From positions 21,832,026 to 21,896,025 of the forward strand of contig CM037463.1 of NCBI GenBank assembly GCA_021014325.1: DNA of 64,000 bases, in the 5' to 3' direction. Under the pieces are notes generated by a model that had not been told where the DNA came from, did no database searches, and was given only the letters and a program-made list of their open reading frames with translations. Of the stretch, positions 45,129 to 54,100 are shown piece after piece (within the stretch, counting starts at the first letter, position 1; each line of letters starts with the position of its first letter). This DNA is from Plazaster borealis (taxonomy: Eukaryota > Echinodermata > Asteroidea > Forcipulatida > Labidiasteridae). A program made the position numbers and the translations under genes.

Positions 45129-48100
45129 CTGTTGAGAAAATAATCAATCATGAATTACAAAGTACTTAAAGGGTGTGCATAACATTGGCAAGAGTACAAA
45201 AATAAATGTTCACAGATTTGCAACACAACGTACATGGTATAAAGATGGTCATAGTGGGAAATTGAAATGCAATAGTTTTTGAGAAATGACTAAAACAATT
45301 AGTTTTGATCTTCACAAGTCCAAAACTCAATGTTTGAAAACAGTGGAAACATTTTAGGATTGTTTCCTCTTTTTTCCTGTGACTTCAATAACTGATTGAG
45401 CTTAACTTTTCACAGGTTTGTTATTTCATGTGTATGTTGGGTCACATCAAGTGTGAATACTGGTCTTTGACAAGTACCAATGTGACACATGTGCTTTAAA
45501 GGCATGTTATACTTTTGGTAATTGTCAAAGACCAGTGTTCTCACTTGATGTATCCAAACATATGCATAAAATAACAAACCTGTAAAAATTTGGGCTCAAT
45601 TGGTCATCAAAGTTGCAAGAAAATAATGAAAGAAAAAACACCCTTGTTGAAGAATAAAATTGAGTGCTTTCAGATGCCTGAGAAAGGTTTTTGAGATATT
45701 GCCGAAAATCTGGAGCAGTTATGACCACGCAGAAAGAATAAGCTGCAATTGGAATACACAATCGAAAAACGTTACGGCAGTAACGCTTCTCAGATTCAAA
45801 TTTTTGGTAATAAAAAGTGATATCTTTTTCCATAACCGCAGTACTTTGAAGTGAAAAGTTTCTCAAAATGCATTTTACTATCCAAAGCTACTGTACTTCT
45901 TACCAAGTAAGTTTTTATTGCCATTAATTTTCAGAGTCATTACCAAAACGTACCAAAACGTATACAGACTCTTTAAAAAACAGAAACCCTCCCCCTCCAA
46001 GGTGAGATAAAAAAAAAGGGGGGAAATATGCCGATGATGATCTTTAATGATCGGTGGTCTTACCTTCTGATGGTAGAGCATCTTCTTCTTCATCGTCAAG
46101 ATCATCATCGTCGTCGACCTCGCCGTCAGGGTTGAAATCTTCTTCATCTTCTTCGTCATCCTTAAATTACAAATCGGATATCGAACTCTTAGACTCTTCT
46201 AAAAGCCAGTCACTTTTCTTTTTTGTTAAAGGGCACTTCTGTGAGGTCAATTAGGGATTGACGGCAGGACAATTAGCGATTGGGGGGCAGGGTAATTTAG
46301 TGGGGGGGGGGAGCCGTGTAAAACTCCACTGGAACTTTTCGATGGGGCCAAAAGGCTAAGTTGTCTCTGACTTGGTGTTCTGGAAGTGAGGATTACGAGA
46401 ACAAACTGGACACGTATCCAATCGTGGTCAGGATGCAACAAGTCAGCATTTAGTGATTTCAAAAGGCGTTTGAATCATCAGACTCATAACCCAGTGCTAA
46501 TCATCATTCTTGCGCACTCCTCGACCAGGTTTGTGGTGACAGTCACCAACGTATGAAAAGGACAAGTTGAGAAGGAGTTTGCAAAAGGTGGTGGCTGTCA
46601 AGATACAGGAAGGGGCCAAGGGTGAATCTTGGAAAGTTTCCGTCAATCGTAAACAAGTATTCCATCAACTCTTTTGAACCTTACCACAAGGTCTGACTTT
46701 TGGAGGTAGTCAAGTCCGACCTCCGACCCGCTATCACTGTCTACGTCGTCGACGTCGACTTTTCCTCCCGTCGCATCCTCATCATCTTCTTCGTCTTCAT
46801 CCTCGTCATCATCATCATCATCATCGTCATCGTCATCGTCGTCATCATCATCATCGTCATCGCTGACGTAGACGTTAGCTTCGTCATCATCATCTAAGTT
46901 GAACAAATAATATATTGAGAAAATAGAATTAGCTGTTGCAAACTGCTTACCGACCAAAAGGACCCGGGTATAAAGGCAAAAAATAGTTAATGGCCCGACG
47001 TTTGGACCCAAGCAGAGTCTTTCTTGAAGGCTAAAATACAACACAACACTGTTGTCATTTAGCCAACACAACACTGTTGTCATTTAGCCTTCAAGAAAGA
47101 CTCTGCTAGGGTCGAAACATCAGGCCATTAACTTTTTTTTTGAAAATAATATATTATGGTCATTAGCAGCTCATCTTCCTTCAGATAAATCTACCTGTAT
47201 TAATCATCTTCGCACATGACAATCTCTCGGTGAAATTTAGGCATAACACCGCAGTAACACCACGCATAACACTGATGTAATAACACCATGTATTACATGT
47301 GTGTTTTCCATGCCATTACACAGGAGTAACACATAATAATAATAATAAGACTTGTAATGCGCACATATCCACCCTGCTGGGTGTTCAAGGCGCAGGAGTA
47401 ACACCACGTAATACACAGAAATAACTTCCAGGCATGTGAGCGGGTCATGGACAAAAAAGAGGAAAAATTGTTTTTAGTTAGCGAGCACGTAGCGCAAATT
47501 GTAGGAGTCCCAAATTTGTCGCCCCGCAAGTTTTTACACAAGCCCACATGTAAGTATGCACACAATTTTCGAAGTGTAAAAAAAAAAAAAAAAACAACGA
47601 AAAAAAACAAAAAAACCACGGAAGTGAAGTTCGTAAAATTGCAATTTTGGACGATCTTTCCCCCTAATTTCTGCCCTTAATAATAGTGTTTTCATCAACA
47701 GCAACTTTCATGGATTCATAATTTGAGGATCGGTTTTATAGAACTTCTTTTGCACTGAAATCTTTGTGATTTAACGATCGGTCGACAACGCACATTGGGG
47801 AAAAAAAAAAAGGCGAGAGCGATGTGTTTATGAGTACGAGGTTATAATTTTGCATGAAATTTAACAAGAACGAGGTTGAAATTAGACTCCACCGCACGTC
47901 TTCTGACCCTGGAAATTCGAGTTGCGTGTTTCCCTACTCGCCCAAGTATTCATGGAAGACCGCAAGCCGCATATCGGGCCAGCTGCCGGGCCGCAATGTA
48001 TTGCTAACGTGCTGTTTTTTCATGCACGCCTTGTGGTTCCGCGATATATGATTATACAGGTAAACTTAAAGTGCTTTCCGATGCCAGGTTCCCCTTCTCT

Positions 48101-51100: not shown

Positions 51101-54100
51101 TTCCTTTAGGGTAATAATACTTTTAGAGGTTTGAGACACATTTAAAGTACATCAAAAGGCTTGGAATTTCACCGAGCACTTCCCTCAGAAAATCAAACAG
51201 TCTAAAGGAACAAATGGTCAACAGGGCATCATGGTTTAAACCAAGTCAAAACGGGCCATGGCATCAACACAAGTAGTCTAAACTCTAACCCTACCAGGGT
51301 TCTCCCAATGCACAAGCTAGCGTATCTTGCCAATATGCGCAAATTTTGGCCGATATAAAACAAAAAACAAACCCAAAACAACATATAGAATGCTCCAAAT
51401 TGCACAATAGGTTCTTGAAAACCAAGAAAAACACCAAGTAGAAAACATTTCAAAGACCTTGTTTCAATTCAGTGCGCTTCGGCCAAACATCCCAAATTTT
51501 TTGCCAAGAATCCCCCAGTTTTGAAAAAACTACCAAATGCATCTTTTGTGGAAACATTCCAGAAATCTTCAAAAGGAACAAACAATTTAAAAAATTGCAA
51601 TTCGTGAAATAAAATGAACAAGGAAAAATAAATTATTCTGAACTTACCAGTGGCTGTAACGCGTCCAGATCTTTGATTTTGTTATTGCTCAAAGTTATAT
51701 GTGTTAATTTGGGACAGTTTACCAGTACCCCAAGCCCCGACAATATTCTGTTTTCACTCAATTCAAGCTGCAAAGGAGAAATGGGAAACAAAGAACAAGA
51801 GGAATTAATTAAAGAATTGTGGTCTATTTTAACTTTTAAACCATTCTTAACAAGTTTTCACACAAAACAAATATTAGTACAAGAAAAAAATCATCATGTG
51901 CTATTTTTAAACTACATATTTTATTTCCTCAAAACACAAATAAAGAAATGTATAAAATCTTGTATTTCAACAGGCACGGAATTTCATCTTTGAGAGGGCA
52001 AGGCCATTTACATTTTGCGAAGGGCACTTCTATTGGAAAATCTTAAAATCTATGGGAAACTTCTGAAGGGGCACAAAGGCCAAAACCAAGTGGCAAGACC
52101 TCCGAGGCCTCCATGTATTTTCAGGCCTGCTCCAATTTCTTGTATGATATTGACACAACTTTTAACTGTTACCACCCAAAACCCTTCAAAATCAAACAGC
52201 ATATTTTTTCTTCTTCTGTTGGAATGAAGACTGCATCAGCAAAACAGATCATGCTTTACATGTGATTAGGCATACCACAATAATCAGAGTCCAACAATTA
52301 ATGTTTTTGCAGGCCTAAAATTTCATCTTTGGGAGGGCAAGGCCATTATCATTTTGCAAAGGGCACTTCCCTGGGAAATAATTTGATTTCAAGAGAGCAG
52401 CAAGTCAGCGTTAGTGATTTCAAAGGTGATAGAATCATCAGACTCATAACCCAGTGCTAATCATCATTCTTGCATTTTCTTTTGACAAAGTTTTAGGTTG
52501 GGTGCGGCTTTTTAGGGAGGAACAAAAATAAAATTACATTTAATTTATTACTTGTACATAATTATTGCAAATATCTTCCAAAAAATGACCTATTTTCCTT
52601 TAAGCTTGTATTAATCTGTTCCACGTAAGAATTGTTTTTCAGGGCCATGCAAGATATTCCTTCAACAAAATTATGTTAAATAAGAAAAACCACTTTCCAT
52701 CCCAAGTCTTCCATCAACTTTTCTGCCTGCAGAACAATACTCTTCGAAATTGGGCCCTTGTGTCGAGTCGAGCATGGTGTTGGATGTTGCAAGTGTTAGG
52801 GAAGATCAATAAACAAGTTAAACGATATCGAGTTATTAAAGGAACATTACCGAATTGGTTTTTGCTAACAAACCAGTTGCTGGCAGTGTAAGCACTTTAT
52901 ATAATCCACCATATACATAAACTGACAAACCTGTAGAAGTTTGAGATCGATCGGCCATCTGGGTCACGAGAAAATAGTGAAAAACCGATTACACATTTGC
53001 ATGTGTTATACAATGCATGAATAAAACGCTCATGAGCGATAAACTCCAATCGGAAATTAGTTTTATTTATTTCTCATCAAATATGGCATTTCAGACAGAA
53101 ATATTTCTAGGGATGTTTTCTACTATCATCATCATTAGACCGTGTAAGTTTTATGTAAATCTGTGATCTTAAAGAAAATTTTAATTACCAGTTCTGTAAC
53201 GTTCCTTTAACAAACAAACAAACAAACGGATTAACCAACCCACCTTTCTGAGGTTGGGAAGAGCTGGGAAGTTTTTGAGTGTTGTTAGCCCTGTGTTGAT
53301 GAGGCTGAGGACTTCCAAGGATTCGTAACTTTCGTTCAATCCCTCGATTGCTCCTTTGTCACTCCGGCAATTATCCAAATTTAATTCTTTGACCTGTAAA
53401 CAAAATAAATCATTTGAGTAAATGTTTTGTACAACAATTAATTTATGAACCGAGCCATAAATTAGTTGATTTTGGGAAAGTATGGTCGATCTCTTTTTTT
53501 AATTTACTTTATTTATTTATTATTATTATTATTATTATTGTTATTATTATTATTGGGGTTTTTTTTTGGGGGGGGATTGAAGAGAACCATCCTCAATCAA
53601 GAACCCACAAACAAACAGACAAACAAGAAAACCAAGCAAAGCAAAAAAACAAAAAAACAAAAAACAACATACAACAAAAAATTGTTCATCCTTCACGATC
53701 TTCAAGTTTCATTTAAAAACAAAAATGAATTTATGAATTTGGATCAAAAATATACTTTATCACGTTTTTAACAATTGTGAATATAATTTACTATGATTCT
53801 TAGCGTCTTAGATTAACATTTCGATTTTAGAAAATCACCCGCCAAATTTATGTTTATACTACGCCCTCTATTGACAAAAAAATACACCATCTCGAAAAAT
53901 CCCTGTTCAAAGTTGGTTGTTGGCCTAAAATCTACATATTCTCCACTCCATTGAGCCTCAAAATCACACCTAACTGTCACAAAAAAATAAATCCGGAGCT
54001 TGATGCCACTAAAATGGCCTGTTGTGAAATTTTGGCGAGTTTCTAGGCCCCGTGTACCGTGCAGGGATCGGTGTCCACTCATTGGGCGCGTGCCTAACAT

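Follow-up and report, generated by a model that had tools for sequence, protein, structure and literature searches.

The closest described relatives of the elements treated here are the box C/D small nucleolar RNAs (snoRNAs) SNORD88 (RF00604) and snR76 (RF01209), which Rfam places in one clan, CL00071. Yeast snR76 has 25S Cm2197 as its target, and all three human SNORD88 copies lie in the gene C19orf48. The human SNORD88 precursors are reported to come from C19orf48 introns (PMC4647676), and SNORD88A/B/C are described as guides for C3680 of the large subunit (LSU) ribosomal RNA (rRNA), 43 nucleotides (nt) from G3723 (PMC10911272), a position that also goes by the alias Cm3701 (PMC5597630). Members of human C/D families mostly share one host gene and lie in different introns of it, an arrangement ascribed to cis duplication (PMC8178906), and EIF4A2 is reported to host five snoRNAs (PMC10324135). 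Here, a stretch of 64,000 nt from the sea star Plazaster borealis (GenBank assembly GCA_021014325.1, contig CM037463.1, positions 21,832,026 to 21,896,025; hereafter the window) is considered, in which each of introns 2-6 of an ANP32 gene carries one short element with the boxes of a C/D snoRNA. The five elements are very probably intron-encoded box C/D snoRNA genes of the SNORD88/snR76 type. An earlier note on this DNA had taken them for C/D snoRNA genes, one per ANP32 intron, and this is also the best reading after a strict scan, a count of copies and an analysis of the guide upstream of the D' box. To that note are added a probable target, an accessory block, a genome-wide copy count, an ATF4-like locus and possible external stems.

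Five Box C/D Elements in Consecutive ANP32 Introns

All five elements that had been claimed are present on the - strand of the window, in sense to ANP32 and one each in introns 2-6. Named after their introns, they are i2 (52400..52473, 74 nt), i3 (50974..51048, 75 nt), i4 (49896..49969, 74 nt), i5 (48632..48706, 75 nt) and i6 (46438..46513, 76 nt). In i2 and i4 an AACG tail precedes the D box (type b), and in i3, i5 and i6 the tail is AAATG (type a), with one extra T in i6. The boxes and the stem given in the earlier note were found in every element, namely C box ATGATGA, D' ATGA, C' TGATGA, D CTGA and a 5-bp stem GCAAG/CTTGC. For the copy that had been placed at 46439, the imperfect stem is real (CTTGT, with one G-U pair), whereas the start and the length of 74-75 nt had to be corrected to the values above. 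Thus, a terminal stem encloses C (RUGAUGA) and D (CUGA) boxes in 5/5 elements and, by reading, in a sixth genomic copy that lies beside an ATF4-like gene. In the i3 copy, counting from the sequence places the C box at 51036-51042, the D' guide AGCACTGGG at 51025-51033, the D' box at 51019-51022, the C' box at 51010-51015, an accessory block GAAATCAC at 50989-50996 and the D box at 50979-50982, all on the - strand.

The strict scan covered both strands of the 64-kb window and required five paired bases, an exact C box RTGATGA, an exact D box CTGA and a C-to-D distance of 45-95 nt. Its matches are exactly the five ANP32 elements and nothing else. In 100 controls obtained by Markov-1 regeneration, which is not an exact shuffle, the mean was 0.19 matches and the maximum 2, and with the C' box also required the mean was 0.02 and the maximum 1; five matches are therefore more than chance would give. 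Neither the strict scan of the whole window nor Rfam at gathering level found a further snoRNA in ANP32 introns 1 and 7. A covariance model built from the six copies, and hence circular, scores the five elements at 101.7-108.8 bits, with the next matches in the window at only 15.7 and 10.7.

The Probable Ribosomal Target of the D' Guide and Family Assignment

Upstream of D', the elements carry a guide complementary to rRNA, as judged on proxy LSU sequences. Indeed, AGCACTGGG pairs over 9 bp with 28S CCCAGTGCT in 3/3 proxies covering the site, with a U-G at the next position, and the base opposite the fifth nucleotide upstream of D' (the D'+5 rule) is the third C of a CCC in all three. A fourth LSU fragment has the same site, and so does the Rfam consensus for eukaryotic LSU. 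In a proxy LSU, the base 43 nt on from the third C is a G, which fits C3680 and would fit the neighbouring Cs too. Since the guide is shared with SNORD88 and the spacing to the next guided G is 43 nt, we infer that the guided C corresponds to human C3680, the SNORD88 site; what links the D' guide to this C of LSU CCCAGUGCU is complementarity and the +5 position only. An antisense oligonucleotide given in PMC10911272 has a human complement that includes CAGCACUGGGCUC, the same core.

With permissive Rfam settings, SNORD88 is the top family for three of the five copies (27.7, 27.7 and 27.0 bits); the i2 copy reaches 27.7 bits (E 0.00013 in a 121-nt search). For the i3 copy, SNORD82 has 26.9 bits (E 0.067) and SNORD88 25.7 bits (E 0.043), that is, fewer bits but a better E-value, and for the i6 copy its clan relative snR76 comes first with 22.3 bits.

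Several observations have to be counted against the assignment. Rfam at gathering level lists none of the five elements in the window, and the gathering scores are not reached, the best values being 27.7 against 46 for RF00604 and 22.3 against 55 for RF01209. The elements are therefore named SNORD88/snR76-type and not members of RF00604 or RF01209. In addition, the C' box TGATGA is present in 6/6 genomic copies, but the D' box is ATGA instead of CTGA in the same 6/6, one mismatch from CUGA. The 9-bp guide leaves position 1 unpaired. Finally, the target has been read from the rRNA of other eukaryotes and not from this genome's own 28S, the proxies being eukaryotic rDNA from contaminated public records, namely three contigs listed with bacterial assemblies and one viral-contig record.

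Conservation among the Copies

In the core alignment of the six copies, 64 of 76 columns are invariant. The 12 variable ones comprise one after the C box, two in the D'-C' loop, six in the spacer after C', two in the tail before D and one in the stem, where a change from G-C to G-U keeps the pairing. No change is seen among the six copies in the boxes, the D' guide or the block TTGAAATCACT, and columns 54-64 are invariant. Constant boxes, guide and block next to a variable spacer are what selection on a guide RNA would be expected to leave; gene conversion could also keep the copies alike.

The sequences around the cores are shared to different extents. The i2, i4 and ATF4-locus copies align well past the snoRNA (i2-i4, 267 nt at 86%; i4-ATF4, 160 nt at 86%; i2-ATF4, 134 nt at 92%). 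The pairwise alignments of i3, i5 and i6 begin at stem base 1 and stop at most 7 bases past the stem end (75-82 nt, 93%); per pair, their cores are identical at 70-71 of 76 columns and their 40-nt flanks agree at only 8-15 of 40 bases per side. The copies do not split cleanly into two groups, however, as i3 aligns with i2, i4 and the ATF4-locus copy over 103-105 nt, so that about 20 nt of upstream flank is common to them, a point that also counts against the picture drawn here.

These comparisons bear on the alternative that the set has largely decayed, with only one or two of the five copies still made and the rest being recent inert duplicates or gene-converted. This may be so, although it is not what we expect. 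About one third of annotated vertebrate snoRNAs are reported to be expressed (PMC10234308), and i2 and i4, identical at 75 of 76 core columns, may be recent. Against decay, the boxes, guide and accessory block are intact in 6/6 copies while the spacer columns vary, and the flanks of i3, i5 and i6 are mutually unalignable, which indicates that those copies are old or were independently inserted.

A Probable Accessory Pairing Next to the D Box

In 3/3 LSU proxies, 28S GTGATTTC lies two bases 5' of the guide site and is complementary over 8 bp to GAAATCAC, a block before the D box that is unchanged in 6/6 copies. Taken together with the D' guide, it has an antiparallel-consistent order, with the C'/D' module looped out. 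A block that lies outside the guide and pairs with rRNA beside the target, as expected of an accessory element, is thus found in the sequence. When the C'-to-D region was shuffled, an equally long match within 15 nt of the site was obtained with p 0.009-0.013 and within 20 nt with p 0.011-0.020, in a test that comprised four of the six copies and was run after the match had been seen. Extra base-pairing with rRNA has been described for more than half of C/D snoRNAs (PMC5389607). As in snoRNAs with such pairing, a second block pairs beside the guided site in the ANP32 copies; unlike there, the 5'-adjacent block is absent from the Rfam SNORD88 consensus. All in all, GAAATCAC would act as an accessory pairing. 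The copies differ in length by one base between this block and the D box, and since that would displace the +5 register, a role as a further methylation guide is disfavoured. Another candidate for the main accessory contact, a pairing of CTTTGA with 28S TCAAAG, was set aside, as it is broken in the i3 copy whereas GAAATCAC is kept in all six.

The opposite view, that each copy is a double guide whose D-box guide (TTGAAATCACTAA[A]YG) directs methylation of a second RNA as well, is unlikely. In its favour, the block upstream of the D box shows no variation in 11 columns, and two 8-bp pairings with small subunit (SSU) rRNA are among the ten best matches per guide: that of AAATCACT with AGTGATTT, for both tail types, in the only SSU proxy that covers the place, and that of TCACTAAA with a stretch at the SSU 3' side of one proxy, for type a only. 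Against it, about 5 kb of rRNA is estimated to contain 0.3 (invariant block) to 1.3 (whole region) such 8-bp matches by chance, the one-base indel between block and D box moves the +5 position between the copy types, and the same block is explained by an accessory pairing beside the D' site. Among the ten best matches per guide, no register-consistent match was common to both tail types and more than one proxy; a second guide at the D box was rejected as a candidate on this count and is retained as a rival to the accessory pairing.

Possible External Stems and Release from the Introns

Between the copy end and the 3' splice site there are 631 (i2), 498 (i3), 402 (i4), 1737 (i5) and 277 nt (i6). 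A distance of 40-50 nt from the branch point is the classical optimum (PMC10234308; the classical view also in PMC8162545), and a terminal stem is described as often compensating when the snoRNA lies farther away (PMC10234308). According to the same source, the distance to the branch point is 100 nt or more for the majority of expressed human snoRNAs, and terminal stems are more stable in those C/D snoRNAs that are expressed (PMC10234308).

When flanks were folded around the fixed terminal stem, external stems were predicted on the - strand for three copies: 51060-51067 with 50959-50966 for i3, GTCTTGAT (48712-48719) with ATCGAGAC (48621-48628) for i5, and TGGTC.AGGA.TGC with GCATCCTGACCA for i6. 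The upstream arm of the i3 stem lies within the flank that i3 has in common with i2 and i4. The 25-nt flanks were compared with dinucleotide-shuffled flanks and with 767-802 random intron positions each. Against shuffled flanks, p was 0.004 (i3), 0.045 (i5) and 0.005 (i6), and against random intron positions 0.008 (i5) and 0.006 (i6); Fisher combination for i3, i5 and i6 gave 1.0e-4 and 5.6e-4, respectively, and all of these 25-nt values are optimistic because the flank length was chosen after folds with 20 and 40 nt had been seen. Folds of whole elements for four copies gave z of -2.3 (i3), -2.3 (i5), -2.2 (i6) and -0.9 (i4). The i3, i5 and i6 copies may thus have predicted external stems of their own, which is suggestive and not settled. 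Pulling the other way, i2 (0.06), i4 (0.08) and the ATF4-locus copy (0.25) are not significant against shuffled flanks; against random intron positions i3 is not significant (0.135), and i2 (0.62), i4 (0.64) and the ATF4-locus copy (0.82) are weaker than average. With 40-nt flanks, only i3 is significant (0/300), the others being at 0.08 (i2), 0.30 (i4), 0.09 (i5), 0.10 (i6) and 0.25 (ATF4 locus).

The position of the copies within their introns also bears on the idea that the elements act in cis on ANP32 splicing, with methylation guidance being secondary. Intronic snoRNAs can regulate the splicing of their host by pairing with the adjacent intron, as described for SNORD2 and EIF4A2 (PMC10324135). 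The ANP32 copies, at 277-1737 nt from the 3' splice site, have flanks that differ among most of them, and the part that is conserved is the rRNA guide, which makes a cis function very improbable.

Genome-Wide Copy Number and the Sixth Copy

A DNA search of the genome (560.6 Mb, E up to 10), which addresses near copies only and skips very common words, gave six matches, five in ANP32 and one elsewhere, and 6/6 candidates were scored. Scatter over the genome, which the earlier note had named as the sign of a transposon, was not seen; the near-identity search did not return the many dispersed copies in both orientations that mark a transposable element, and the sixth copy lies upstream of the coding exon of an ATF4-like gene. 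That the search gave only six near copies disfavours a transposon. A mobile or repetitive DNA element that resembles a C/D snoRNA by accident is hardly credible: although the i2, i4 and ATF4-intron copies align over 134-267 nt including flanks and the i4 and ATF4 copies have an A-rich stretch downstream, all six matches are in sense and in or beside genes, i3, i5 and i6 have little beyond the snoRNA core in common, no target-site duplication is visible by eye beside the cores, and the guide fits the SNORD88 site. The A-rich stretch makes retroposition of the longer unit possible. The copies, read as C/D snoRNA genes, would have arisen by duplication of DNA segments or by retroposition within ANP32, one of them having reached the ATF4-like gene.

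The sixth copy is located at G000:C21:23259288-23259361 (locus L011:4989-5062), sense to the ATF4-like gene and upstream of its coding exons. The gene beside it encodes a bZIP protein whose basic-zipper region matches a solved ATF-4 chain (E 7e-13). The copy reads as sitting in intron 1 of this gene, with the 5' exon assigned by inspection only, and the ATF4-like gene is a possible second snoRNA host.

The Host Gene and Its Surroundings

ANP32 is an acidic nuclear phosphoprotein and not a ribosomal or translation gene. On the - strand of the window, the coding part of exon 1 (29 codons) is at 56396..56482, with its boundary set by inspection of a GTAAAA donor. The joined reading frame places exon 2 at 53244..53393, exon 3 at 51648..51767 and exon 4 at 50306..50474, all three matching ANP32 chains, followed by the acidic tail in exon 5 (49387..49491), exon 6 (46685..46893) and exon 7 (46064..46160), and by exon 8 (45061..45128), which ends in TAA. 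The protein encoded by exons 2-8, which join without an internal stop, contains leucine-rich repeats and an acidic tail and has KRKRDP close to its end. Compared with solved structures, the leucine-rich repeat part has its best chain at 3.4e-48 (named LRRcap protein) and its best ANP32A-named chain at 9e-48, other ANP32A/B chains being weaker. Among 8000 candidates scored, the top two protein matches come from sea stars, one being an ANP32A-like protein of Acanthaster planci (65% over 97%) and the other a partial protein of Patiria miniata (82% over 65%). The host thus has both the leucine-rich domain and the acidic tail of ANP32.

The earlier note knew of no ANP32 gene as a multi-copy snoRNA host, and the literature searched did not mention ANP32 as a snoRNA host either, which is weak evidence of absence as most subscription papers fall outside its coverage. 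One paper mentions ANP32B as a 3' untranslated region fragment only, and the other ANP32 mentions looked up were unrelated. The main text of PMC3511168 names neither SNORD88 nor ANP32.

Other features accompany the two loci. A transfer RNA gene (25293-25366, - strand) is the sole gathering-level Rfam match in the window. In ANP32 intron 7, a fold-back of about 200 nt (45397-45598) matches Rfam MIR5998 on both strands below the cut-off and resembles a miniature inverted-repeat transposable element; by eye, similar sequence is found near the ATF4-like gene (L011 ~3190-3290). In intron 5, another fold-back (46996-47122) encloses two tandem identical 25-nt repeats and has weak matches to several microRNA families, mostly on both strands. 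A microRNA reading of these two fold-backs was rejected, their Rfam scores being far below the cut-off and mostly on both strands; they look like fold-back repeats. Next to the ATF4-like gene, at L011 ~3690-4050, a stretch of ANP32 intron 2 (~52860-53240) is found again in inverted orientation with respect to gene sense; by eye, it is a dispersed repeat near both snoRNA hosts. Finally, a 72-nt repeat occurs in ANP32 introns 3 and 2 at 50586-50657, 51968-52039 and 52307-52378, the latter two being 88% and 85% identical to the first.

Proposed Mechanism and Comparison with Known Systems

If the elements are C/D snoRNA genes, each intron would release an RNA of 74-76 nt during or after splicing of the ANP32 pre-mRNA. 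Released C/D RNA assembles with fibrillarin, Nop56, Nop58 and 15.5K, and each RNA released from an ANP32 intron would do likewise. The D' guide would then position the third C of the CCC in 28S rRNA for 2'-O-methylation by the D'+5 rule, GAAATCAC would add an accessory grip on 28S GTGATTTC, and the external stems predicted in introns 3, 5 and 6 may help assembly far from the branch point. A bolder proposal is that in sea stars ANP32 is a dedicated, dosage-raising host, with five functional copies, a bipartite grip on rRNA by the D' guide and the 5'-adjacent accessory block, and at least three introns whose different external stems free assembly from the splice site. This is decidedly doubtful; if true, methylation of a growth-linked 28S site would be tied to the expression of a chromatin/proliferation protein.

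For a guide that the curated Rfam threshold misses in this genome, the locus provides a named target, together with test cases resolved almost to the single copy. In human fibroblasts, depletion of SNORD88 is reported to have slowed proliferation (PMC10911272), and the five-copy ANP32 set therefore allows one to ask whether copy number is used to set methylation at the SNORD88 site. Moreover, published views differ on how intronic C/D snoRNAs are made far from the branch point (PMC10234308), and the copies with their differing flanks amount to a natural experiment on what such a snoRNA needs.

When the i2 copy is set against the Rfam consensus of SNORD88A/B/C (HBII-180), the C box, the D' guide UAGCACUGGG and ACCUUUGA after C' are alike, and the LSU C3680 guided by SNORD88 is the inferred target of the ANP32 copies. 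Unlike SNORD88, which is hosted by C19orf48, the copies lie in ANP32; they are shorter than the consensus by a 4-nt and a 9-nt stretch around C', have AUGA instead of CUGA as D' and score under the Rfam cut-off. In particular, the consensus lacks the GAAAUCAC by which the ANP32 copies pair upstream of the site, and it contains CUUUGACA, for which inspection suggests a possible pairing on the downstream side. Yeast snR76 resembles the i6 copy in the UAGCACUGGG guide before D' and in a GAAA block before D, which align between the two, and differs from it in that the i6 copy is shorter than the consensus and has 22.3 bits against the 55-bit cut-off.

Like other genes that host several snoRNAs, each in its own intron, ANP32 carries one element per intron; unlike them, it has the same guide in five consecutive introns. 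As copies in different introns of the same host are common, the organisation is less surprising than the earlier note had held. Collectively, since human C/D families mostly share a host and SNORD88 precursors come from C19orf48 introns, the arrangement in the sea star is of a known kind, and it is the host that is unusual.

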